Source of the DNA: Neocallimastix lanati (nom. inval.)
Lineage: Eukaryota > Neocallimastigomycota > Neocallimastigomycetes > Neocallimastigales > Neocallimastigaceae
Reading direction: 5' to 3'
NCBI GenBank assembly: GCA_016946835.1
Contig: JACVTC010000008.1
Span: 910,001-974,000 of the forward strand
DNA: 64,000 nt
The notes beneath the pieces were generated by a model. That model saw nothing but the letters and a program-made list of their open reading frames with translations. It was not told where the DNA came from and ran no database searches. Positions 5,334 to 51,026 of this stretch are shown here, in pieces. Position 1 is the first letter of the stretch; each line of letters starts with the position of its first letter. A program made the position numbers and the translations under genes.

Positions 5334-5337
5334 ATTT

Positions 5338-5823
5338 TGATAAGAATGTACTAAATAATGCATTCTTAATTAAATCTACGATTTATTTCTAATACATTAT
5401 GTGTACATTATTATTTTTGTACTTTAATAAATTTTTAAATCCAAAGATCAAAAATTAAATCAAAAATTATATTAAACTTTATATTTTTATATTAAATCTT
5501 ATATTAATAGTAATATTTTTATATATTTAAAACTTATATTAGCAATATTAATAATAAATCTTATTTTTTTTATTTTTATATTAATAATGAAAATTTGTAT
5601 TAATAATATTTTTATATATTGATAATTAAAAATTTATATATTATATTTTAACTTTTATTATAAAATTTTATATCGAAATGTTTTATTTTATATTGAAAAA
5701 TATTTTATTTTATTAAAAACCTTTATATTAGAATAGTATTTTTATTTCTATTTGAATATTTTAACAGATTGTAATAAAAATTATAGCCAATTAAATAAAT
5801 TCTTATTAGTAATATTTTAGATA

Positions 5824-5874
<51 letters not shown>

Positions 5875-6169
5875 TTTTATTAATATTATAAATGTATTTT
5901 ATTTATATTGTTATAATTAAATTTTATATAATTGATTATAAAATTCAATTTAAATTTAATAGTTTTTATAAAAAAAAAAAAAAAATAAATAAAATGTAAT
6001 TTAGTGGCAAGAACAACTTTTATGCCTTGAAAAAAAGTATAAATAGTTGTAAATTTTGCTACCAATTTTTAAAAAATCATCAAATAAATTTATAAATAAA
6101 AATAATAAATAAATAAATAAAATTTGTGTTTCTTACTTTATTTTTATTTAATTCTCTAAAACCTTAACA
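5338..6169 (+). repeat. 5' LTR of element 2 (LTR family 2)
   Basis: Begins TGATAAGAATG and ends CCTTAACA; 832 bp, the same length as the 3' copy at 12572-13403 and differing only by a few substitutions and poly-A length. A TATAAATA box at 6038-6045 sits about 130 bp before the LTR end and is a likely promoter. It is flanked on the left by ATTT, matching ATTT after the 3' LTR, which is a plausible 4-bp target duplication. Solo copies of this LTR lie at 32044-32879 (minus) and 62882-63684. Confidence 0.92.
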
Positions 6170-6178
6170 TTTATATGG

Positions 6179-6192
6179 TGGAGATATCGGGG
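6179..6192 (+). other. Primer-binding site, element 2
   Basis: TGGAGATATCGGGG lies 9 bp after the 5' LTR. The TGG start is what pairing with a tRNA CCA end requires. The identical 14-mer occurs after the 5' LTR of element 4 (49967-49980). The tRNA is not identified. Confidence 0.65.
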
Positions 6193-6390
6193 AATTAAAT
6201 AGAAATAATAGTAAATAACATAGATTTTTTTTAATTTTTTTTTTATTTTATATTGATAAACAAGTAAGTCGTTAATCCTTTGATTAACCTATGGCGCTTG
6301 TTTGATATATATATATAATAAAAAAATTTTTTTTAAATAAGTAAAATTAAGATTCTAAAAAAAAAAAACCAAATCTTGTAAAATTATAAC

Positions 6391-6672
6391 AAGGAGCGGA
6401 TAGAGCTCATACACAGTGTATTTCCAGAAAACAACAAAATATCTATTATTCATAGTAGGTTATTGGATAATAGTTATTTTGGGAATTAATTGGAAAGTAG
6501 ACGAAGGTATTTGGTTACCGACCCGGTAATAATAGTTCAGCCTTCAACGTTTCAACACACGAAGGTGCGGGTACTTTCCAAGCACTGGCGAATAAGGAGC
6601 TTACGTCACCGAAGGCGTAAGATTGTTTTTTTTTATATTTTTTTTATTTTTCTTTGTGCTAGTTATAAGGCA
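6391..6672 (+). ncRNA. Conserved structured leader RNA (copy in element 2)
   Basis: This block is shared with the leader of chromovirus A (17440-17790), although the two elements are from different clades. Shared segments in order: GGAGCGG then TAGAGCTCATA at 6393-6411; a hairpin with invariant loop AGTAGGTTA (stem 6444-6451 with 6465-6472); CTGGCGAATAAGG at 6585-6597; a 6-bp hairpin CTTACG/CGTAAG (6600-6605, 6616-6621) with invariant loop TCACCGAAGG; and TAGTTATAAGGCA near 6659. A long-range stem GGAAAGTA/TACTTTCC (6491 and about 6576) encloses GAAGG/CCTTC and TTACC/GGTAA. The stems differ in sequence between copies but stay paired. I recognise no known RNA family. Confidence 0.7.
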
Positions 6673-7196
6673 CTTTATTATATAAAGTATCAGACTTTGG
6701 CTAACTTCGCCATTTAAATTTTTTTTTATTTTTTTTTATTACTGATACTTTATTTGTTTAATAATTCCTGTAAAAGAATCTTAATTTACTTTGAAAATAT
6801 TGTGTTTTTAGTTAATTTTTATTAGTTAATAAAAATATTATTGAATACTTTTAAAATTTTTTTTATTCCGTACATAGATTATCGGATTAAGTTTATCCTA
6901 CATAGTAATTGGGCTAGTGGGCTCTGAACTGCTATATTTTATATTGAATATAGTAATCGTGGCACACGAGTGGCATGACACCATTAGGTAAGCTGCACGT
7001 CAGACAGTGTGTACTATCAGATTGTACGACAATAAAGATTATTTTTTTGTATTTAATAATTATAATTAATTAATAATTTTATTAGCTATAATAATACAAT
7101 ATTTATCGTTTAAAAAGAAAAATTTTTTGAAAGGTGAAAATAATAAATAAAACTTTGCTTCTAAATTTATTACTACAAATATACTAAATTACAAAA

Positions 7197-7470
7197 TTCA
7201 AGTGGTCGATAAAGATTTCGAGCTTGAAAAATATTCTATTAAGTTGTCGATAAAGATTTCGAACTTAAAATTATTCTATTAAGTTGTCGATAAAGATTTC
7301 GAACTTAAAATTATTCTATTAAGTTGTCGATAAAGATTTCGAACTTAAAATTATTCCATTGAGTTGTCGATAAAGATTTCGAACTTAAAAATTATTCTTA
7401 ATAAAGTAGTCGAAAAGAACCTCGTGCTTTATAATTTCTACTAAGTTGTCGATAAGGATTTCGAGCTTAT
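7197..7470 (+). repeat. Seven tandem hairpins upstream of gag, element 2
   Basis: Unit of about 40 bp: outer stem, GTCGA, loop of 6-8 nt (mostly TAAAGAT), TCGA, outer stem. Outer stems vary together: TTCAAG/CTTGAA, TTAAGT/ACTTAA three times, TTGAGT/ACTTAA with a G-U pair, TAAAG/CTTTA, and TAAG/CTTA. The array ends about 170 bp before the gag ATG. Element 3 has the same kind of array with other stems at 23863-24069. Confidence 0.75.
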
Positions 7471-7643
7471 ATCTATTAAAGAAAGCAAATAAAATTATTA
7501 TTTTCAAAAGTTACTAAAATATATTGTTTTAAAAATTGATTCGATATTAAATTACCTATTAAATTATATTTTTAAAGTTGTATTTCCAAATTTATTCTTA
7601 TTTAATCACCTCATTAATATACAACAAGAAATATTTAAACAAA

Positions 7644-8555
7644 ATGTCCAAGGAAACAACTTTGAGCTTTAAAGAATTGAAAAAAGAATTAAGAGATATT
7701 GTGAAACTTAGCAAGGACAATTTAGATATTAAGTCCTGGGTTACTGAATTAAAACTTTGGATCAAGATACAAGGTATTACAGATCCAGAAACAATATTTA
7801 ATGCTTGTTTACTTACCAGCTCTGGTGAAGTACAACGCGTTATTGAAGATTTGGGAGAAGATAGTGATGATGAAAGTGATGATTCATCAGATGAAGAAGA
7901 AGAAGATGATGAAGAAGAAAATGTTGATGATGATATTAAATTTCCTTCTCTTGGAAAAATTATTTCAAGTCTTGAAAATTTTTACGGTATTAAAGAAGAC
8001 CAAAATTTACTTCTTAAAGAACTTCGTGCAATGCGAATTAAAAGAAACGAAAAGATTAAAGACTTTAATGTAAGATATAGAACTTTGTACACTAAACTTG
8101 ATAAAAAGAGAAGAAAGCGCATTGGTGTACTAGATTATATTGATTCTATTCAAAATAATTATGAAGCCTGGAAGAAATTATCCCTTAAAGATGATATAAG
8201 TATGGAGAAAGCTTTCAAAATTGCCGAGAAAGTAGATAGACTTTCTGTAAGGAACAATAATATTAATATCTATAATGTTAATAATTCCCAGCATAATCAA
8301 AATAATCAAAACAGTACTACTTCAAGACTTTATCCTAAAAGAAGAAACGAAACTTTCCAAACAAGTCAAACAAATAATAAACTGAAACCTCAAGATATTA
8401 TAGAAGAATCAACCCAGAAAATGAGAAATTTATCTGTTAAAACTTGCTTCTTCTGTAAGGAAGAAGGTCATTACTCATACTATTGCCCTCAATTAAATAA
8501 GATTATGGAAAAAAATAAAAAAGAAATATATTCCAAAAAGTCTTTAAACTTCTAA
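7644..8555 (+). CDS. gag: Gag, Ty3-like element 2
   Basis: 303 codons from the ATG at 7644; the frame is open further upstream, but the Gag of element 3 starts with the equivalent Met, so this start is preferred. The N-terminal two thirds form the capsid-type domain, including a conserved region of the form K-E-L-K-K-E-L and a W-x5-L-W-I motif. An acidic Asp/Glu/Ser run (about residues 71-96) lies between two conserved capsid segments. One CCHC zinc knuckle lies near the C-terminus. It assembles the particle and binds element RNA. The frame ends in TAA four bases after the slippery heptamer. It is intact, and with Pol makes this element potentially autonomous. Confidence 0.93.
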   Translation: MSKETTLSFKELKKELRDIVKLSKDNLDIKSWVTELKLWIKIQGITDPETIFNACLLTSSGEVQRVIEDLGEDSDDESDDSSDEEEEDDEEENVDDDIKFPSLGKIISSLENFYGIKEDQNLLLKELRAMRIKRNEKIKDFNVRYRTLYTKLDKKRRKRIGVLDYIDSIQNNYEAWKKLSLKDDISMEKAFKIAEKVDRLSVRNNNINIYNVNNSQHNQNNQNSTTSRLYPKRRNETFQTSQTNNKLKPQDIIEESTQKMRNLSVKTCFFCKEEGHYSYYCPQLNKIMEKNKKEIYSKKSLNF

Positions 8556-8575
8556 ATGGGAGCAGAAGCACTCCC
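8543..8575 (+). promoter_or_regulatory. -1 ribosomal frameshift signal, element 2
   Basis: Slippery heptamer T TTA AAC (8543-8549), the same heptamer coronaviruses use, then exactly 8 nt, then GGGAG (8558-8562) pairing with CTCCC (8571-8575) across an 8-nt loop. Gag ends at TAA 8553-8555 inside the spacer. The -1 frame is open from 8549 to the end of Pol. Confidence 0.85.
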
Positions 8576-11500
8576 AATGACAAAACAATAGCTTCATTAA
8601 ATAATTTACAAAATAATACTTTTACTAAGAATACTCCAATTGATAATAATTCCTTTAATGAAGAATCTGAAGAATCTGATTTTAGTGACACAACTGAAAG
8701 TGAGGATAATATCATTATAAATGCTATAAAAAGAAAAATGAATGATAATAACAGCGAAAAAGAAGAAAATAATTCCAAGAAAGTACATAAAAGTTTAAAA
8801 GATAATCCACGTCCTTTCGCAACTCCTGCTTTAAGAAAGAAGAAAGAAAATGAGCTACATAATAAACCAAATAAAGTTTATAAAAATCAAATACTTCCTT
8901 CAATTTTAACTCAACCAAATATTAACAAAGAAAAACAAAAAGAAAAGGAATTAAGAAATATAACAAGAGTAAGAGAAAGTAAAGAAGAAAACAACAATTA
9001 TTCATCAAAAGGAAAGAAAAAAGTTGAATCTGAAGATATACTTGTAATCGATAATGAAATAGAAGATATAGAAATGAATAAAGATAATCAACAAAATAAA
9101 ACTAATACTTTGGAAAAATTAATTTCAACAAAAACTAAAGAAACTAATAATGGAAATACTCAGTTAGTAAAAAGGAATATCAAAATGATGAATAATAAAG
9201 AACCTTACAATATTATGGATGATTTAAATAATCTTAAATCCAGTATTACGATAGGTCAACTCTTGAATGCATGTCCGAAAATTCGTTCACAATTAACTCA
9301 AGGTTTAAAGTTAGAAAAATCTAAAATAATTGGAACTGTAGACAATGTAATAGCACGAACTTTATTAGTGAATAACTATGATCATAGCTACATAAGTAAA
9401 AGTAATGAAGTAGCCGAAGAAGACTTAGCAATGATTGATGCAAGTGTTGACGGAGTACTAGGAAAACTTTTAATTGATTCTTGTAGTAACCTAAGCATCG
9501 TTACTAAGCAGTATTTTGATAAATTACCTGGTGAATATGAAACAGTTGGAAAAAGTCGTGGAAGAATCCAACTAGCAACACAAGATGAAGAATACTCGGA
9601 AGGAATTATTGTTCGATTACCAGTAAAAATTAATAATTATGAATTTAATGCGGACTTTAGAATTATTAAGAAAGAAGACTCATTTTATGATATGTTAATA
9701 AACTTTAAAACTCAAATCGATCATTGTTTATTTATTCATCCGACCTTAAACAGTTTATGTAAACTTTTGTCAGAAAGTGAATACGAAGAAATAGCTAAAA
9801 TAAATAATCAATATTATGATGAAGAAAGTATAATTTGTACTATTAGAAAAGTTAAAGAAACGAATAATGAAAAGGAAATTATAAAGGAATTAACTCCAAT
9901 GGAATTTATTGAGAGTGATGAATTTTTAAGTACCTTAAATAAAGATTATAAAGAACAAATTATTAAAATTCTCAAAGAAATGATTGACATAGTTGCCACT
10001 TCAACAGAAGAACTAACTCCTTCTAAACTTTCACCACATAAGATCCGTTTAAAAGCAAATTCAAAGCCAGTAAAATTAAGAAGTTATAGGTTAACTAAAT
10101 TAAAATCAGATATCTTAAAAGAAGAACTTACAAAGCTTATTAAGAAAGGATTGATAGAACCATCCTGTTCAGAATGGTCATCTCCAGTAGTACTTATTCT
10201 AAAACACAATGGAAAGTGGCGCTTGTGCATTGACTACCGAAAAGTCAATGATATGACAGAAAAAGATTCTTATTCAGTTCCATATATAGATGAAATTTTT
10301 GATAGTCTCGGAGGAGCTAAAATATTTACAACTCTTGATTTATTTTCTGGTTTTCACCAAATCTTAATGGATGAAGAAAGCGTTGAAGTAACCACTTTCA
10401 CTACTAAGTTTGGAAATTATCAATTTAAGGTTATGCCTTTTGGACTTACTGGAGCTCCCTCAACCTTCCAAAGAGAAATGAATAAAATTTTATTCCCTTT
10501 TATTGGTGAATTTGTTTACGTATTTATTGATGATGTTTTGATCTATTCAAAAAGTATCGAAGAACATTTAATTCATATTAAACAAGTATTAGAAGTATTT
10601 AAAGAAAACAAGTTAAAAATTAATATTGAAAAGTGCCATTTTCTTCAAACTGAAGTTGATGTATTAGGTCACAAACTTACTACTAAAGGATTAAGCCCCA
10701 TGGAAAGCAAAATAACAGCTATTAAGAAGTGGGAAGCCCCTTCATCAATTCATGAATTAAGATCATTTCTAGGAGCAATAGGATATTATCGTGACTTTAT
10801 TCCTAAATATGCTCAAATTACCTCACCTTTATGTAAATTATTGAAAAAGAATACTAAATATGAATGGAATAAAGAACAACAAGAAAGCTTTGAACTCCTA
10901 AAAGAAAAATTAATCAATGCACCTATTCTAAAATTTCCGTCATTTGACAAACCTTTTATCATTAGAACTGATGCTTCGTATAATGGAATTGGTGGAGTTC
11001 TTTTACAAAAAGAAGAAGAAACCGGTAAGGAGCATCCAATACATTTTATAAGTAGAAGTTTGAAGAAAGCTGAAAAGAATTATGGTATCACAGATTTGGA
11101 AGGAACCGCTTTGTTTTACTGTATGACTAAATTTAAATCTTATATTGAAGGAAATCCATTACCTACAACTATTTACACAGATCATAAACCATTAGTTGGT
11201 TTATTTAAGAATAAAGAACCTTTGAATGCAAGGCAAACAAGATGGTGTCTAACCGCTAGTATGCTTGGAATTAATATAAAATATGAATCAGGCAAAAAGA
11301 ATGTGTTAGCTGATGCTCTTTCAAGAATGAAAAGTAAGGAAGAGAGAAAGATATTATTAACAAAAATTACTAATGGAAATAATGAAGAATTATTATCTAA
11401 AGTTATAAAGGAATTTATTAATGAAAAGTTTACTGTTATTGATGGTGAAGATTACTTTATCGACAATGGAAATTATAGAAAATTAATAACGGATGAAAAT

Positions 11501-12559: not shown

Positions 12560-12571
12560 GTCGGGGCATCT
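12560..12571 (+). other. Polypurine-tract region of element 2
   Basis: CGGGGCATCT abuts the TG of the 3' LTR. It is short and only partly purine, but it matches the GGGGCATCA seen in element 1. Confidence 0.5.
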
Positions 12572-13058
12572 TGATAAGAATGTACTAAATAATGCATTCT
12601 TAATTAAATCTACGATTTATTTCTAATACATTATGTGTACATTATTATTTTTGTACTTTAATAAATTTTTAAATCCAAAGATCAAAAATTAAATCAAAAA
12701 TTATATTAAACTTTATATTTTTATATTAAATCTTATATTAATAGTAATATTTTTATATATTTAAAACTTATATTAGCAATATTAATAATAAATCTTATTT
12801 TTTTTATTTTTATATTAATAATGAAAATTTGTATTAATAATATTTTTATATATTGATGATTAAAAATTTATATATTATATTTTAACTTTTATTATAAAAT
12901 TTTATATCGAAATGTTTTATTTTATATTGAAAAAATATTTTATTTTATTAAAAACCTTTATATTAGAATAGTATTTTTATTTTTATTTGAATATTTTAAC
13001 AGATTGTAATAAAAATTATAGCCAATTAAATAAATTCTTATTAGTAATATTTTAGATA

Positions 13059-13107
<49 letters not shown>

Positions 13108-13403
13108 TTTTATTAATATTATAAATGTATTTTATTTATATTGTTATAATTAAATTTTATATAATTGATTATAAAATTCAATTTAAATTTAATAGTTTTT
13201 ATAAAAAAAAAAAAAAAAATAAATAAAATGTAATTTAGTGGCAAGAACAACTTTTATGCCTTGAAAAAAAGTATAAATAGTTGTAAATTTTGCTACCAAT
13301 TTTTAAAAAATCATCAAATAAATTTATAAATAAAAATAATAAATAAATAAATAAAATTTGTGTTTCTTACTTTATTTTTATTTAATTCTCTAAAACCTTA
13401 ACA
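12572..13403 (+). repeat. 3' LTR of element 2
   Basis: Second 832-bp copy (see 5338-6169), TGATAAG to CTTAACA. Few substitutions and compensating poly-A length changes separate the two LTRs, indicating recent insertion. Followed by ATTTT and then the TG of the next LTR. Confidence 0.93.
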
Positions 13404-13408
13404 ATTTT

Positions 13409-15773: not shown

Positions 15774-16335
15774 ACAAACTAGTAAATTAGTAACTATGGT
15801 TCAATGGTAAGTTATCATAACCATCGGGCTGAACCCTTAGGGTTCGACAACAACTCTTTTCAAATTTTAATAACTTTATATTTATTATAACTAGAATATT
15901 AAAGAAATTAATAGTGTTTATCGGTTAAACAATTGAACCGATAAAACTAGAAAAATCTATTTTATTAATATTTTTTATCATTTTTTATCTAAGATTCATT
16001 TTCTAGAAAGAAAACTTGTTTTCTTTAATTTTCTTTAATTTTCTTTTATTTCTAATAATTACTAATAACAACCGATAACTTAAAATAATTAATTTTCCTG
16101 AAAAACTATAAATAGGTGTAAAATTTCATAATAAAATATTTTTACCTGTGCTTTTATTAATTAATTTTAAAGTAATTTAAAATATTACAATGATTAATTA
16201 ATAAAATAATAATTTACATTTTTTACTAATAAAAAAACTTATTTTAATAAAACATATTTTGAATTACTTTAGTGTCGAGAACCTTTTGTGTAAAAAACCT
16301 TATAACAATCTTAAGTAACATTAAGATTTGTTACA
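15774..16335 (+). repeat. 5' LTR of chromovirus A
   Basis: Nearly identical to 22398-22955. The common right end is TTTGTTACA. The left end is uncertain because the first 15-20 bp present in the 3' copy (TGTAACGAAACTC) are missing or altered. A TATAAATA box lies near 16109. Two hairpins near its start resemble a tRNA arm pair: TATGGT/ACCATA and GAACCC-TTA-GGGTTC. Confidence 0.85.
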
Positions 16336-16387
16336 ATAAAAGCACCCTTTGACAAAAAACACGAAACCTTCTCGAGACAAATCTACT

Positions 16388-16440
16388 CTTTTGGAATCTA
16401 CTCTTTTGGAATCTACTATTTTGGAATCTACTCTTTTAAA
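16388..16440 (+). repeat. 17-bp tandem repeat in leader
   Basis: About four copies of a 17-bp unit built on TCTTTTGGAATCTAC, the last copy diverged. The sequence is non-coding and pyrimidine-rich. Confidence 0.7.
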
Positions 16441-16726
16441 ACTTTAAACAACTCTTGGGCTACCGCTAATAATTATATTATCACTAAAACAATATTTTTT
16501 CTGTGGAATACTTCCTTAAAAAATTCTATTCTTGAATCTAGTATCTTTTGGATTATTTCTTTTTATAGGTTATCTACCTCTCTTTTGCATTCCTTCTTTA
16601 CTCAAATTCTTGCCCAATTTTTCCTTAGATTCTTCGCTTACTCTTTATTATAAACATACTTTCAAATTAAATTCTATCTACCTTTGGATTCCTCTTTGAA
16701 ACTCTACCTATACCTTTTGGATTTTA

Positions 16727-16763
<37 letters not shown>

Positions 16764-16839
16764 TTATTAAATGAATATATAACCCTAACCCTATATTCTA
16801 TAATATATTTAGGTGAATGAATATATAGTATCTTAGATA

Positions 16840-17030
16840 AATATTATAATAAAATTAATTGAACTAATATACTATTTATTAGATAAATTTATAGTAAAAT
16901 TAATTGAACAAATATACGATTTACTAGATAAATTTTATAGTAAAATTAATTGAACAAATATATTATTTATTAGATAAATTTATAGTAAAACTAATTGAAC
17001 AAATATACTATTTATTAGATAAATTCTGAA
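16840..17030 (+). repeat. About 45-bp tandem repeat in leader
   Basis: Four to five imperfect copies containing TAGATAAATTT and TTAATTGAACAAATATA. AT-rich with no coding potential. Confidence 0.65.
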
Positions 17031-17275
17031 AGAAAATTAAGTGGACATATACATAATTTTAGATAAAATTTAACTATAATCTAAGTGAAAGAATATAATA
17101 TATTTTAAGATAAATTAATACTTAAAACTAAATACATATATTAATAATTAGCTAAATAATTTTTTTTTTAAAAAAAAAAAAAAAAAAAAAAATTTTTTAA
17201 TAAAATTTACTAATAAGGAGAATCTGTATAGACAATCCTTATTCTCTTTTATTCTTTTTATTTAATTCCTTAATT

Positions 17276-17362
17276 TTGTGTTGGCCCTCGCTGGTAGGCT
17301 CAGACGTAAGTCCTACATCTCAGCTCTTTCAGTTAAAATTCACTGAAAGAACAGCAACACAA
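17276..17362 (+). ncRNA. Three-way-junction RNA fold in chromovirus A leader
   Basis: Closing stem TTGTGTTG (17276-17283) with CAACACAA (17355-17362), enclosing GTAGG/CCTAC (17294-17298, 17312-17316) and CTTTCAGT/ACTGAAAG (17326-17333, 17342-17349). Three perfect stems within 87 nt of an otherwise A/T leader make chance unlikely. No known class is recognised. Confidence 0.6.
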
Positions 17363-17439
17363 AAAAAAAAGAAAAAGAATTTTTAATTTTTAATAAGTTT
17401 TCGTGTCCATCTTTTTTAAGGTAATACGATAAATATACT

Positions 17440-17790
17440 AGGAGCGGTTAGAGCTCATAAACAGAGTTTCGGCGTATATTAACTAGTTTCAGTAGGTTAG
17501 AAACTATAGTCGTTAATTATTTGAATATAAACGGGCTTCAAAACCCTAGAGTGTAAAGAGAGTGTGGATTAAAAGAGAACTACATCCTACCAACCAACTT
17601 CAACAGTTCGGTGGTTGCTCTATTCGAATAAGCTCTGGCGAATAAGGAACTATAGTCACCGAAGGCTATAGGTTGGTCGTGAAGGTAAAGCGACATTAAA
17701 ATATATAGTTTTTAATTTTATTTTGAGGTCTAGTATATACCTCTAGTTAGTAGCTTTTGCCGGTTTTTTTTTTTTAGTTGTAAGGCATTA
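17440..17790 (+). ncRNA. Conserved structured leader RNA (copy in chromovirus A)
   Basis: Second copy of the block at 6391-6672. Shared: GGAGCGG and TAGAGCTCATA at 17441-17459; hairpin TAGTTTC/GAAACTA (17484-17490, 17500-17506) with loop AGTAGGTTA; CTGGCGAATAAGG near 17634-17646; hairpin CTATAG/CTATAG (17650-17655, 17666-17671) with loop TCACCGAAGG; TAGTTGTAAGGCA near 17776. The stems share no sequence with those of element 2 but both copies pair perfectly, and the loops are unchanged. It ends about 90 bp before the gag ATG. Confidence 0.7.
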
Positions 17791-17877
17791 AAAGCGAAAT
17801 TTAAATTGTATTTACCTTAAATAAAAGTTCTTCAATAATTAAATTATCAAATAAATCTATTTTGAAAAAGCAAGAAA

Positions 17878-20800
17878 ATGGAAGAAGATACCTTTTTAAA
17901 TGCCAGTGCTACCAATAAAGATGGATTCGCTGGAGATCGTCGTTACTTTAAAGGATTTTTAGCAAAAATGAATCTAATATTCATGCTTGATCCCGAACGA
18001 TTTAATAATGATCCAATAAAGGTTGCGTATATCATTTCTAGACTCTACGGCTCTGCAATGAACTGGGCTGCTACTTTAATTGAAAATAACGATCCATGTT
18101 TAAATAACTATCAACAATTCACCTCAAGATTTAAGGCTACTTTTGGGAGCTACGATTCGACTTTCATTGCTAACCAGAAATTGAAGACAATTAAACAAAG
18201 ACGCATCGGTGAAATAACAAACTATATTCTCGAATTCAATAGATATTCTGACGAATCTTCGTGGAATGAAGAAGCTAAAATGGATGCTTTCCTCAATGGA
18301 CTTAACGATCAAATTGCTACCAAAATATATGAAATGTTTCCAGGACCAAGATCTCTTTTCGCATTACAAACTATTGCCTCTAGACCAGATAGTCGTATTG
18401 CTGCGCATAGACAATTTTCTAATCCACAAAACAGATCAAATAATAATAATAATAATGATAACAGAAATAATAACAGAAACAATAATAATAGAAGACAAAA
18501 TAAAGGGAAAAAGCCTTTCAAATTCAATACCCGAGGTCCTTTGTCTAATGAAGAAAAGGAAAGAAGAAGAAAAGAACATCTTTGTGCCTATTGTGGATCA
18601 GCTAACCATTCCCTTGACCATTGCCCACTAGTAAACAGAAATAAAGCCTCTTCAAGCAGTTCTCATATCACTAATCTTGAACCTAAAACCATTCCAAGAA
18701 TAAGAATTTCTGATCAACCCGATGTAAAGCTACCAATTTTTGAATTCTCTCTTAATGTTTCCAATATTTCTACAAAAACTAAAATTCTTCTGGACTGCGG
18801 CTCTCAACTTAATTTAATAGATGTATACTTCGCAAAAGAAAACAATATTCCTTACTCTAGTGAATGTAATCTCCCTAACGTATCTGGAATCGGCGGTATT
18901 CAGTCAATCATAGGTAAAACTGCACCAATATCCTTAAAATATAAAAACCACATATGTAAAACAAGTTTCTATGTTGTTGACCTTCCTTCGTATTGTGCTA
19001 TTTTAGGCATTGACTGGCTAGAAACTCATAATCCCACTATAGACTTTGCCTCAAAAGAACTCTCTTTCAAATCCAACTATTGTATTTCCAATTGTCTTGT
19101 TCTTCCCAGCGCCTTCACTACTTATGTTCCTTTAAATACTATTAAAAAGAATGATAAAAAAGAAGAAGATAAAGAAAGTAATAAAATAAATAAATCGTTA
19201 CCAAAGAAATTACTTCCATTTAAGGATGTCTTTAGCGAAATATATGCGAATGAATTACCTCCCCATAGACCTTATGATTGTGAAATAAAACTTATGCCTA
19301 ATACTGTTCTTTTCTATGGACCTATTTACCCTTTAACAGAAAAAGAATCTACTACACTTAAAGAATATATAGATGAAATGTTAGCAAAAGGATTCATAAG
19401 AAAATCAAAATCCCCTGCTGGTGCACCCGTTTTCTTTGTACTTAAAAAGAATGGTGAATTAAGGATGGTTGTTGACTACCGACATTTGAACGATATTACA
19501 ATTCGCGATTCTTACCCTTTGCCATTAATCAATGACATGCTCGAACACCTTGCCAAAGGAAAAGTCTTTTCAAAACTCGATCTTCGATCTGCCTATAATC
19601 TTGTCAGAATAAAAGAAGGAGATGAGTACAAAACAGCTTTTAACTGCAAATATGGTCATTTTGAATACTTAGTTATGCCTTTCGGTCTGAAGAATGCTCC
19701 TGCCGTATTCCAACACTTTATCAATGACGTTCTCGAAGACTTTCTCGGAAAATTTGTCTTTTGTTACATTGATGATATTATAATTTTCTCTCCTGACTTA
19801 GAAACACACTATGAACATCTTATTAAAGTTCTTTCAAAACTCAGAAAAGCCGGTTTGTACGCTAAATTCGAGAAATGCGAATTTTGCATTCCCTATTTGG
19901 ATTTCCTTGGACATAGAATTTCCTCTGATGGTATCCTTATGGACCCTAAAAAAGTTTCCTCTATTCTTGAATGGCCTGTTCCCACTGATATAAAACAACT
20001 CCAATCCTTCTTAGGACTTGCCAACTATTACAGACGTTTTATTCCAGGATTTGCAGCTTTAACACATCCACTTCATTCACTTTTGAAGAAAAATGAGAAA
20101 TTCGTTTGGACATCTGAAACTCAAAAAGCATTTGACGATTTAAAATCCAAATTTTCTTCTGATTCTGTACTCGCATACCCAAACCGTGATTTACCCTTTC
20201 TTGTCGAAACAGATAGTAGTAATTTTGCTATTGGCGCTATACTTTCCCAAGCTTCTCAAAAGGACAATAAAATTCATCCTATTGCATTCTTCTCAAGATC
20301 TCTTACTGCTGCTGAGAAAAACTACCCAATTTATGATAAAGAACTTTTAGCAATCGTTGAAGCTTTAGAACAATGGAGACATCTCTTAAAAGGAACTTCA
20401 ATCCCATTCACTATTTTCTCTGACCATCGTAACCTTTTATACCAAAAGAAACCCGAGAAAATGTCACAAAGACTTGTTCGTTGGGCTCTTTTCTTATCAG
20501 AATTTAACTTCAAAATCACTTATCGTGCAGGATCTGCTAATGGTAAACCTGATGCACTTTCTCGAAGACCTGATTATGCATCAAATGAAGAAGAACTGTC
20601 CTCTGACATTCCTTTCAACGTCTTAAAACCTGAAAATTTTTGCGCTACCACTTCCATTGCTTCTTTAAATGATCAAATACTCCATGAATACAAGAAAGAT
20701 AAATATTATAATGAAATCTGCAAAAAACTCAACTCTAAAGAAGACTTCCCAGAATCTATTAAATTTTCTTTAAGCAACAACTTCTTACTCTTTGATGGAA

Positions 20801-22076
20801 AAATTTATGTTCCCCTTAACTGTCGTTCTTCAGTATTAAATATCTGTCATGACTCCCTATCTGCTGGTCATTTTGGTTTCAAGAAAACTTTCTCCTTAAT
20901 CAATCGTGACTTTTGGTGGTCATCTATGCAAAAAGATATTAAAGACTATATTAAATCTTGTGAAATCTGTTGTCGTTCAAAGGATTCTAGACACAAACCT
21001 TATGGATTTCTGAACCCACTAGAAATTCCTGACCGACCTTGGACTTCGCTTTCCATGGATTTCATCACTGATCTCCCTTCATCTAATGGATATACTTGTA
21101 TTTTTGTTGTTCTCGATTCACAAAAATGGGTCACTTCATCCCATTTCCTAACGTTCCTTCTTCTGAAGATACTGCTAAGGCATTCATGACTCATATTTTC
21201 AGACTTCATGGATTGCCAAATGAAATTCTTTCCGATAGAGGTACTCAATTCACTTCTAAATTCTGGACTTCTATTTGCAAAACTCTCAATATCTCAATGA
21301 AACTTTCTTCTCCCTTTCACCATCAAACTAACGGTTTAACGGAGAGGGTGAACTCCGTTGTAGAACAATTTCTCAGATGTTACTCTAATTTTAAAGGTTC
21401 AAATTGGCATAATTATCTATTCCTTGCTGAATTCTGCTACAACAATTCTATTCAAGAATCATTAAATAAATCACCTTTCTACGCAAATTATGGTTACAAC
21501 CCTCGCTTCTCACCAGCTGTGCCAAGTTCTATTGATGTTCCGCGTGCTGAAGAATTTACAACAAACTTAGCGAAACTTTTCAAACAATTAAAAGAAAATT
21601 TAAAACAAGCAAGAAATAAACAAGAAAAATTCGCCAACCAACACAGAATTAAAGCACCTGAATTCAAAGTAAACGACAAAGTTTGGATAAACAGTTCATT
21701 CATATTAAGAAATAAAAATAAAAAATTAAAACCAAGAAAGCTAGGACCTTATAAAATAATTGAAAAAGTCTCTCCAGTAACATACAAAATTGATTTTCCA
21801 AAAAATATAAGAATACACCCAATTATCCATGTATCAGAACTTGAGCCATACTACAAAGACAATTTTAAAAGAAAAAAGGAGCCTCCACCTCCAATTATAG
21901 TTAATGATGAAGAAGAATATGAAGTAGAAGAAATACTTGATAAAAGAAAACATTATGGAAAGATTCAATATCTTATCAAGTGGAAAGGATATCCTTTATC
22001 TGAAGCATCTTGGGAACCGGAAGAAAACCTCAACTGTCCAGAAATACTCAAAAAATTTAATAAATCAAACAAATAA
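17878..22076 (+). pseudogene. gag-pol: Gag-Pol with chromodomain, chromovirus A (one frameshift)
   Basis: A single long frame from the ATG at 17878, as in chromoviruses with fused Gag-Pol. Order: capsid domain; Asn-rich linker; CCHC zinc knuckle (C236, C239, H244, C249); protease with D306-C-G-S; reverse transcriptase with Y630-I-D-D; RNase H; HHCC finger; integrase (Asp codon 21058, Asp 21234, Glu 21342); C-terminal chromodomain at about 21919-22067, which in this clade binds modified histones and guides integration into heterochromatin. The first frame stops at 21189. The second frame (open to 22076) joins it at about 21114-21118, between the first and second integrase aspartates, where a few bases are missing. 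Everything else is open, so this is a young copy with one inactivating break. A sequencing indel cannot be excluded. Confidence 0.93.
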
Positions 22077-22382: not shown

Positions 22383-22955
22383 TGTAACGAAACTCATAAC
22401 TAGTAAATTAGTAACTATGGTTCAATGGTAAGTTACCATAACCATCGGGCTGAACCCTTAGGGTTCGACACCAACTCTTTCCAAATTTTAATAACTTTTA
22501 TTTATTATAACTGGAATATTAAAGAAATTACTAGTGTTTATCGGTTAAACAATTGAACCGATAAAACTAGAAAAATCTATTTTATTAATATTTTTTATCA
22601 TTTTTTATCTAAGATTCATTTTCTAGAAAGAAAACTTGTTTTCTTTAATTTTCTTTAATTTTCTTTTATTTCTAATAATTACTAATAACAACCGATAACT
22701 TAAAATAATTAATTTTCCTGAAAAACTATAAATAGGTGTAAAATTTCATAATAAAATATTTTTACTTGCGCTTTTATTAATTAATTTTAAAGTAATTTAA
22801 AATATTACAATGATTAATTAATAAAATAATAATTTACATTTTTTACTAATAAAAAAACTTATTTTAATAAAACATATTTTGAATTACTTTAGTGTCGAGA
22901 ACCTTTTGTGTAAAAAACCTTATAACAATCTTAAGTAACATTAAGATTTGTTACA
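22383..22955 (+). repeat. 3' LTR of chromovirus A
   Basis: Matches 15774-16335 almost base for base from ACTAGTAAATTAG to TTTGTTACA, with a TATAAATA box. Both tRNA-arm-like hairpins are perfect here. Followed by ATAAT; no clear target duplication because the left end of the 5' LTR is altered. Confidence 0.88.
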
Positions 22956-23746
22956 ATAATATAGAAATATAATATATACATAAATAAATATTAATAATTT
23001 AAAGTAGCACCTACGTCCTTACTATATTAGTTGGATAAATAATTTCATACAACAAAGTTGTTATATTTCTGTTTGTGCAAGAGAAACAGTGTGATATAAA
23101 ACTTTGAAATATTTATTCCTGTCAAGTACTAATTAGTAAGAATAATAATTTAATTATATTATACATTTATTCATTAATATAAGAATACTTTTATACAATT
23201 TATAACTTATTGTAATCGGCGGCTGTTGGATGAAAAACTCCTTAGCTTAAGGCTTTGTTACAATTAAGTATATGTAGTAATTCGTATTTATATTATCGAC
23301 TAAATTATATTATAATTGAAATTATAAATTCAAATTTATAAATATATACATATATATAGTATCTATATATTGATACCAAGATTGTTGATATATATAGATA
23401 TAAAAATTAAACGTTTATATTAGAGAATAGGAGAAGGATTGCTTTACACATAGGGAGGTAGTAGAGCATTATTGAATAAAGTTTAGTGATACAAGTGATA
23501 ACAGAATAGAAAAAGTGGTAAGGTCCCGCGTTCGTACAGGCACACACTACTCTGTTATATTCACTATTCTGACGGTTCAATAGTGGAGGTCGAACGGCCC
23601 TGTAAAGAATCTGCGTATCCGAAAATAATATAAAGCTAATAATATATATATAAGAAATATTTATAAATTTTCCATATTAATTTTTTTTAATTTAGCAATT
23701 AATTTATTCCGTGCTATATATAAGAAATTCTAGTGTACTGAATTCC

Positions 23747-49958: not shown

Positions 49959-49966
49959 TAATTTGT

Positions 49967-49980
49967 TGGAGATATCGGGG
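49967..49980 (+). other. Primer-binding site, element 4
   Basis: TGGAGATATCGGGG, identical to that of element 2. It leads into a short leader of about 180 bp, far shorter than in elements 2 and 3 and without the hairpin array. Confidence 0.65.
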
Positions 49981-50162
49981 ATAATAATAATAAAAATAAT
50001 AGTAATAATAATAAAAGTATTTATATATTATTTTTATTAAATTATATTAAAAGAAAAATTATTTTTGAAGAAAAAAATTTCTTAAAATTGCAAAAACTAA
50101 TTTCCACAGTTTTTGGTATTACTACCTCTGGATTTTATAATTTTAAAACTACCTGAACAATA

Positions 50163-51003
50163 ATGGATTTCAAAGAATTAAAAAAACAACTTAAGGATAT
50201 TACAAAAATTGGTCATTGTAACCAGGATGTTCAAGTATGGGCTACTGACATTGGTTTATGGATAAAACCACAAGATGTGAAAGACCCCAGAACTATTTTT
50301 TATGGATGTTTACTCACTTCCCAAGGTGATGCTCAGCAATTTTAAGAGGACTTGCAAGAGTTGCAAGAAGAAGAAGAAGAATCGGACAGTGATATCAATA
50401 GTGAGGATAATGATAACTCTTCTGAGGAAGCGGATATTGAGAATAAAGAAAAGGAACAACCCTACCCTTCTTTTGAAAAAATCGTTTCTTCCCTGAAAAT
50501 TTTTTATGGCATATCCGAGTACCAGAATTTTTTATTAAGAGAAATTTGTTCCCTACGAATAGGCAAAAACGAAAAGGAAAAAAAATTTCAACAGAAGATA
50601 TAGATCCTTATATACAAAACTTGATAAAAAAAGAAAGACTATTGGCATATTGGACTATACGGACTCTCTTAGACCTAATTACGAAGCCTGGAAACCTGTG
50701 TCCTTAAAGGATGATGTTATAACCTTAGAGAAAGCGTATTTATTAGCCGAAAAAGTGGATCGTTTGTCAAGTCAAAAGTCTGAGGATTCAAGGAAAAACA
50801 ACCAAAGTAATTTGTCAAAACAATCTTTTGCTAAAACAAATAGTAAGTCCACCCTAAGTGAAGAAGATCATTTTAAGAAAGTTAAACAGAGGATTTGTTT
50901 TTACTGTACGGAACAAGGACATTTTCTATCTGAATGTCCAAAATTAAAAAAAATTATTGATGATAATAAACGGAGTATTTTCGATTCAAAATCTTTAAAT
51001 TAA
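50163..51003 (+). pseudogene. gag: Gag pseudogene, Ty3-like element 4
   Basis: ATG at 50163. Homologous to Gag of elements 2 and 3, with the same K-E-L-K-K start, the W-x5-L-W-I motif, a long acidic run, then the capsid tail. Broken by an in-frame TAA at 50343-50345 and by a frameshift near 50580-50600 in an A-rich stretch. The last part (50650-51003) contains the CCHC knuckle and ends in TAA right after the slippery heptamer. No intact copy could be made from it. Confidence 0.9.
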
Positions 51004-51026
51004 ATAATGGGAGAAGAAGCACTCCC
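50994..51026 (+). promoter_or_regulatory. -1 frameshift signal, element 4 (relic)
   Basis: T TTA AAT (50994-51000), 8-nt spacer, GGGAG (51009-51013) pairing with CTCCC (51022-51026). Flanking TAAT/ATTA extends the stem to 9 bp. Preserved although both flanking genes are dead. Confidence 0.8.

Follow-up and report, generated by a model that had tools for sequence, protein, structure and literature searches.

A structured leader RNA shared between Ty3/Gypsy retrotransposon families of the fungus Neocallimastix lanati

Structured leaders of LTR elements

Ty1 is a copia element. In its 5′ TIPIRT domain, the first 326 nt have been described as forming a pseudoknot, with kissing hairpins (PMC5454406). 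For Ty3, the published descriptions give a 5′ UTR of 193 nt and a dimer site, PAL6, at nt 391-396 in GAG (PMC11381356, PMC4974528), and they present the packaging and leader RNA signals of Ty3/Gypsy elements as poorly defined even in yeast (PMC4974528, PMC11381356). Retroviral leaders, as reviewed, hold psi and dimerization signals that can be recognized by a heterologous Gag, and co-packaging permits recombination (PMC5086612).

The RNA described here, called module I, sits in the leaders of several LTR retrotransposon families. Compared with the TIPIRT domain as reported, no pseudoknot was found in module I, it lies 0.3-1.3 kb from the putative 5′ end, and it is common to different families (PMC5454406). 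It has in common with the Ty3 leader the Metaviridae setting, a structured 5′ end, and a candidate palindromic dimer site; unlike that leader, it is shared between families and is cassette-like, two traits that the cited Ty3 descriptions do not mention (PMC11381356, PMC4974528). Its likeness to retroviral psi is that of a structured RNA in the same position, with no Rfam match (PMC5086612). Like the motifs reported for the Sireviruses, it is non-coding and conserved over divergent LTR elements, but those motifs concern the polypurine tract (PPT), LTR repeat, and LTR junction of copia elements, whereas module I is a covarying leader RNA (PMC2829016). No description of module I was found in searches of the open-licence literature. 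What is new in module I is the fold, its sharing across families, and its cassette-like exchange; structured leaders of LTR elements were already known.

Two elements and a shared leader RNA

The window is the whole stretch of DNA that was analyzed, 64,000 nt from the AT-rich N. lanati genome (199 Mb, 22% G+C). Two of its elements, e2 and chA, carry module I.

5334..6172, + strand: 5′ LTR of e2, 99.05% identical to the 3′ LTR at 12568-13407
6176..6192, + strand: primer-binding site (PBS) of e2, starting with TGG and judged to be of the tRNA type by its letters
6393..6626, + strand: module I core of e2, helices P1 to P8 (RNAalifold, covariance model, covariation)
7644..8555, + strand: gag of e2 (sequence, profile scores)
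15777..16339, + strand: 5′ LTR of chA, 98.6% identical to the 3′ LTR at 22398-22959
17441..17675, + strand: module I core of chA (covariance-model match, covariation)
17878..22076, + strand: gag-pol of chA, as open reading frames (ORFs) 17878-21189 and 21096-22076, the second with the chromodomain

The chromodomain of chA (PF00385, E 1.1e-17) makes it a chromovirus of the Ty3/Gypsy group, and none was reported for e2 pol in the same domain scan. The two Pol proteins are 33% identical over 643 aa, and a pairwise comparison of the Gag proteins gave no significant similarity. The e2 Gag is probably a very distant relative of the Ty3 capsid with a CCHC knuckle. It misses both the Ty3_capsid and the CCHC cut-offs itself (the knuckle scores 17.5 bits, below the Pfam cut-off of 20.8), but three relatives of it were scanned, and all three passed the CCHC cut-off, while one passed that of Ty3_capsid and another fell just under it. 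Based on the scores of these relatives, the Gags of e2 and chA are probably very distant homologues. In all, 64 proteins similar to the e2 Gag were found, and of the six with a named source, two are from Neocallimastix and four carry the code Orpsp1, which we take to be Orpinomyces. The pol frame of chA is probably interrupted in the window copy, as judged from its two ORFs, which overlap at 21096-21189 within the integrase region.

The initial annotation had proposed that the leaders of these two elements, despite belonging to different clades, share a functional structured RNA in which identical blocks are held by stems that differ and still pair. All of the quoted blocks are where they were said to be. 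The 24-nt 5′ block GGAGCGGNTAGAGCTCATANACAG lies at 6393-6416 and 17441-17464 (shuffled windows average 0.00 matches) and CTGGCGAATAAGG at 6585-6597 and 17635-17647 (shuffles average 0.34 with two mismatches allowed), while AGTAGGTTA and TCACCGAAGG occupy 6454-6462 and 6606-6615 of e2. The 13-nt block around TCACCGAAGG is weak when taken alone, with 4 matches at up to 3 mismatches against a shuffled average of 1.14. The quoted stems do pair, both CTTACG/CGTAAG against CTATAG/CTATAG and the second stem against TAGTTTC/GAAACTA. A single structured RNA, read from the sense strand, is present in two versions, at 6393-6626 in e2 and 17441-17675 in chA. It is placed between PBS and gag in both of these Ty3/Gypsy families and upstream of gag also in two further family types, F3 and chA2. 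The core has 40% G+C, compared to 22% for the window.

No known RNA class was recognized, in agreement with the initial annotation. At the curated gathering score, Rfam 15 gave 0 matches in the whole 64-kb window, and at relaxed thresholds on the e2 and chA copies everything fell below gathering, the best match (E 0.33) included, with nothing credible among them. Two core patterns run against viral contigs gave 3 and 9 matches, none with both patterns, which were taken as chance, and one exact core pattern gave 0 matches in bacterial and archaeal genome contigs.

The fold

As modeled, module I folds over about 190-250 nt into hairpin P1, helix P2 closing a variable domain, the strand GCGAAUAAGGA, and hairpin P8 with the loop ACCGAA. 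The parts in e2 are as follows.

6394..6408, + strand: P1 hairpin, GAGC/GCUC with loop GGAUAGA (shared block, RNAalifold, covariation)
6414..6419, + strand: 5′ strand of P2, CAGUGU, with its partner GCACUG at 6582-6587 (RNAalifold, covariation)
6444..6472, + strand: P3 hairpin with loop AGUAGGUUA and a covarying stem; another loop in F3 (RNAalifold, covariation)
6490..6581, + strand: P4 domain; UUGGAAAG/CUUUCCAA form the closing helix, and P5-P7 lie inside (RNAalifold, covariation)
6588..6599, + strand: joining strand GCGAAUAAGGAG, nearly invariant, between P2 and P8 (shared block, copies)
6600..6621, + strand: P8 hairpin with loop ACCGAA (two-sided changes in 5 of 8 pairs)
6656..6673, + strand: P9, a weak candidate hairpin, GUGC-UAGUUAUAA-GGCAC (predicted pairing)

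Read along the consensus, GAGC is followed by a 7-nt loop ending in UAGA, GCUC, AUANA, P2, the variable domain, GCGAAUAAGGAR, and P8. P2 has the consensus CAGWGU with GCWCUG (ACUCUG in F3), and a U-A pair of the e2 lineage is swapped to A-U in chA, chA2, and F3. It encloses the P3 hairpin and the P4 helix with P5-P7; F3 has a shorter domain here, with another loop on P3, so AGUAGGUUA stands outside the universal core. The universal core is thus smaller than had been claimed. Invariance does hold for hairpin P1, helix P2, GCGAAUAAGGA, and the ACCGAA hairpin, but not for AGUAGGUUA, which is altered in locus L052 and absent from F3. The fold first drawn was also incomplete, since it lacked P2, which closes the domain, as well as the long P4 and the inner helices. 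P9 was rejected as a conserved helix, with a two-sided change in just 1 of 41 predicted pairs over four chA-type copies.

A palindrome, GAGCUC, falls within the 3′ part of P1 (6403-6408 in e2). It is conserved in most of the aligned copies and lost in L063, and it lies mostly in the 3′ strand of P1 rather than exposed in a loop. No kissing-loop covariation was found in the module I alignment, and a search for extra pseudoknots or kissing loops gave nothing convincing, the candidates being five short runs, most of them at the ends of the alignment.

Covariation and model scores

RNAalifold, applied to six sequences of the e2 lineage, gave 64 pairs, 14 of them with two-sided changes. A covariance model built from these six sequences alone finds chA in register at 99.7 bits (E 1.5e-23), and it has no other match in the window at E ≤ 1 and one of 4.9 bits at E ≤ 10. 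It gives 102.2 bits for F3 and 90.1-97.2 bits for chA2; with a sequence-only model of the same alignment, the scores are 48.7 bits for chA, 35.5 for F3, and 42.2-42.8 for chA2. Structure would therefore supply roughly half or more of the model score, a comparison between two models that weight sequences differently.

The covariation holds in a larger alignment of 12 representative copies, which were picked for divergence and fitted to the model. A second, weak match in L066 was left out of it by the E-value cut-off. Of 694 pair cells, 91.1% pair, versus 73.3% in shuffles, and 36 of the 64 pairs change on both sides, versus 23.9 when shuffled (0 of 500 shuffles as high; the shuffles ignore relatedness). 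The covariation score is 0.440, against 0.162 for the shuffled alignments, and sliding the register leaves at most 12 two-sided pairs and a score of 0.089. Covariation above both shuffled and slid controls is what is expected of a conserved structured RNA. Cells with G-U number 59 and those with A-C 16, and this excess marks the sense strand as the one that folds.

Folding energy gives a more mixed picture. Relative to shuffles, module I of e2 has a z of -4.11 and that of F3 a z of -2.03, while the chA version is about as stable as its composition would predict (z -0.69, with 44 of 200 shuffles as stable). The antisense strand of the e2 version also folds better than shuffles (z -2.02).

Copies and exchange between families

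Further copies had been set as a test beforehand, and they are numerous. The core pattern CTGGCGAATAAGG-NNCTNNNN-TCACCGAAGG has 541 matches genome-wide at up to 3 mismatches, and the reversed pattern has 0. The 5′ block with a non-A base after CAG has 319 matches (reversed, 0), and the 100 among the matches listed are of the e2 type; the form with a non-G base before GAGC has 88 matches, nearly all of them F3 (L021) and 2 of the chA type. Each DNA search scored its best 40 candidates, and family sizes are not derivable from these counts. The covariance model matches 88 of the 89 loci scanned in this genome, some of which overlap (L061 was left out, being the same place as L052). The sole unmatched locus, L051, was set aside as a chance match of a short pattern. 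At the matched loci, the flanking sequence corresponds to LTR, leader, or gag, either of the element families or of relatives, and for chA2 it was recognized through Gag ORFs (L045, L056). With these copies, the covariation, and the absence from Rfam, the central claim of a functional structured RNA with compensatory stems, common to two retrotransposon clades, is supported.

Four family types carry module I: the e2 lineage, chA, F3, and chA2 (loci L031, L042, L043, L045, L053, L055, and L056). F3 and chA2 were grouped with chA by Gag alone, and since all copies come from one genome, the independent family types are about four. Divergent copies of the e2 lineage, L062-L067, are 73-83% identical to L052. 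L062 and L067 had been considered as non-autonomous carriers, which would have argued for packaging, and were rejected because both look interrupted by other sequence. Near the e2-lineage copy of L066, a degraded 3′ half of module I, resembling that of chA, is seen at 2432-2507 on the minus strand.

The likeness between versions of the RNA does not follow the likeness between proteins. For example, chA and chA2 have a nearly identical leader stretch:

17430..17803, + strand: leader cassette of chA common to chA2, 374 nt, 92.3% identity

The alignment with L045 covers 377 columns, and otherwise chA and chA2 share one AT-rich 52-nt piece in non-corresponding places. The LTR and gag-pol of chA have no DNA match in the chA2 loci, and the two Gags are 40% identical over 167 aa. 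The Gags of chA and F3, by contrast, are 67% identical, but the RNA blocks these two have in common are just 34 and 30 nt, and F3 has an exact 40-nt stretch, spanning the joining strand and P8, in common with e2. Because RNA likeness conflicts with Gag likeness, we infer exchange by recombination as the simplest account. Judging from these comparisons, module I appears to behave as an exchangeable cassette that moves apart from gag-pol.

The e2 clade offers a similar picture. The element L104 has the same PBS as e2, a gag that is 67% identical over 592 columns, and a downstream leader that is 82% identical, and it has no module I. It does carry a second conserved stretch of the e2-clade leader:

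6876..7034, + strand: module II (sequence comparison)

Most e2-type loci have module II, and L104 has it at 90.5%. It is absent from L052, which has module I, and from every chA, chA2, and F3 locus examined. Its fold has a z of -1.98, and no credible Rfam match was found for it. Another e2-clade element, in the window at 49964-51000, has a PBS with one mismatch, about 180 nt from PBS to gag, and neither module. Within the clade, elements were seen with neither module (49964), module I only (L052), module II only (L104), and both (e2).

Priming and upstream AUGs

The leaders are long, 1.4-2.1 kb from the putative start to gag: 6065-7643 in e2, 16148-17877 in chA, 182-2262 in F3 (L021), and 502-1897 in chA2 (L056), with the RNA 5′ ends placed from TATA boxes. 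A self-priming layout, in which the 5′ end of the RNA is complementary to the PBS, is known from Tf1 and Tj1 (PMC4600332), and a candidate self-primer is found in chA:

16148..16158, + strand: GTGCTTTTATT, located 41 nt downstream of the TATA box; complement of 16335-16345 in the PBS region of chA

Such a complement has 11 nt in chA and F3 (L021 183-193) and 12 nt in chA2 (L056 503-514), in each case 41-43 nt past the start of the TATA box, and in chA2 it differs on both sides with pairing kept. On these putative 5′ ends, chA, F3, and chA2 have an apparent Tf1-like self-priming layout. In e2, the PBS is of the TGG type, and the one complement to it is an AT-rich 10-nt piece located elsewhere. 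A search for the gene of the e2 primer tRNA was unsuccessful, as the PBS sequence is found at 1,093 places with up to one mismatch and the two loci that were examined held no tRNA. Since module I is carried with both apparent priming modes, a function in priming is improbable.

The leaders are also poor in AUGs. Pooled over e2, chA, F3, and chA2 (L056), 6 are seen upstream of the RNA against 34.7 expected, 0 within it against 7.4, and 1 downstream against 24.1, where depletion is strongest. Upstream counts as low occur in 0 of 500 shuffles for chA, F3, and both chA2 loci, and in 91 of 500 for e2, whose upstream part is not depleted (2 seen, 3.8 expected). Control stretches from LTR U3 are not depleted either (9 versus 8.6 and 2 versus 2.1), and antisense controls gave 12 versus 17.1 (23 of 300 shuffles as low) and 14 versus 14.7 (141 of 300). 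The antisense strand of the F3 leader is also poor in ATG (11 versus 20.7, with 0 of 300 shuffles as low), and slight deficits are seen there for other triplets; the lack of AUGs in F3 is therefore in part a matter of composition and not of strand. On balance, a shortage of AUGs both before and after the RNA points to scanning of the entire leader by ribosomes, which lowers the case for an internal ribosome entry site (IRES).

Possible functions

Module I probably has an important job for the RNA of the element, because its fold is kept by matching mutations and is apparently passed on as a unit. Our preferred account, a tentative one held with somewhat less than even confidence, is a cis-acting module of genomic RNA of the packaging or dimerization type, that is, psi-like. 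Module I would act in cis on the full-length genomic RNA as a docking module, read by Gag, a partner RNA, or both. P2 and P8 would keep the invariant unpaired letters in position, pairing between RNAs could start at the GAGCUC palindrome of P1, and families that cross-package each other's RNA could swap the cassette by template switching. As expected of a psi-type signal, module I is structured and has its place in the leader 3′ of the PBS and 5′ of gag. This location, together with the exchange between families, is the strongest argument for packaging. Exchange between families needs two RNAs in one particle. Of course, the Gags of e2 and chA are so unlike that one Gag-specific signal is not obvious, and the e2-clade elements that have no module I (L104 and 49964) imply that it is not universally required. 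A role in dimerization has to contend with a palindrome that is partly in a paired strand and is lost in a relative, L063. The lack of kissing-loop covariation and the ordinary stability of the chA version also count against the preferred account.

The difference between the e2 and chA Gags is also the strongest argument for a translation or host role. A translation element, be it an IRES, a ribosome shunt, or an enhancer that binds the 40S subunit or initiation factors (eIFs), would aid ribosomes to reach gag over a leader of 1.4-2.1 kb. Host machinery would be a common partner for elements with very different Gags, long leaders occur in all four family types, AUG depletion is greatest 3′ of the RNA, and the module-less element at 49964 has a short way from PBS to gag. 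AUGs are scarce 5′ of the RNA too (e2 excepted), however, as fits scanning, and the distance from RNA to gag varies from about 200 to about 1,020 nt, which leaves this account a serious rival but rather doubtful. Module I could also be the docking site of a host protein that binds RNA and acts in export, stability, or localization of the genomic RNA. This would explain why it occurs alongside such dissimilar Gags and under either apparent priming mode, and its invariant unpaired letters fit sequence-specific binding. Such a role has no specific support, no known element of this kind was matched in Rfam, and we consider it unlikely, though still a serious rival. One could also consider module I in broader terms, as an autonomous, transferable RNA cassette that Metaviridae families acquire or replace independently of their proteins. 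It would then be an interchangeable leader device, of a new fold and no described RNA class, recruiting a common partner (ribosome, host factor, or generic nucleocapsid). We hold this broader account to be possible, if on the doubtful side.

The remaining functions that the initial annotation had offered beside a packaging signal and the now weakened IRES fare worse. A captured host RNA, such as a Pol III transcript or a structural RNA gene, would fit a module that is absent from close relatives (L104) and forms one block common to families. However, 88 of the 89 scanned loci match the model in element surroundings, there is no Rfam match, and none of the loci examined (a minority of the 541 core places) held a host copy, so such an origin is very unlikely. 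Extremely improbable is a self-cleaving ribozyme or intron-like catalytic RNA, despite the compact fold and the invariant joining letters. The letters GGCGAAU do occur in the joining strand of the HDV ribozyme as well, but the helix order is unlike the HDV fold, and that comparison was rejected. No Rfam ribozyme or intron (HDV-like, hammerhead, or others) matched even at relaxed thresholds, and cleavage between PBS and gag would cut off the genomic 5′ end from gag.

Whichever partner reads it, module I shows a leader RNA evolving by block exchange, separate from gag-pol. Its hundreds of covarying copies in four family types of one fungus are also a natural comparative data set for finding the key letters and helices.

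Other features of e2

The leader of e2 contains, shortly 5′ of gag at 7200-7469, a 40-nt tandem repeat of 6.7 copies. At 8543-8576, the overlap of gag and pol has a classic -1 frameshift layout, with U UUA AAC in frame, a 7-nt spacer, and then a hairpin, UGGGAG/CUCCCA. A similar hairpin is also found 3′ of gag in L104 and at about position 51009 of the window.
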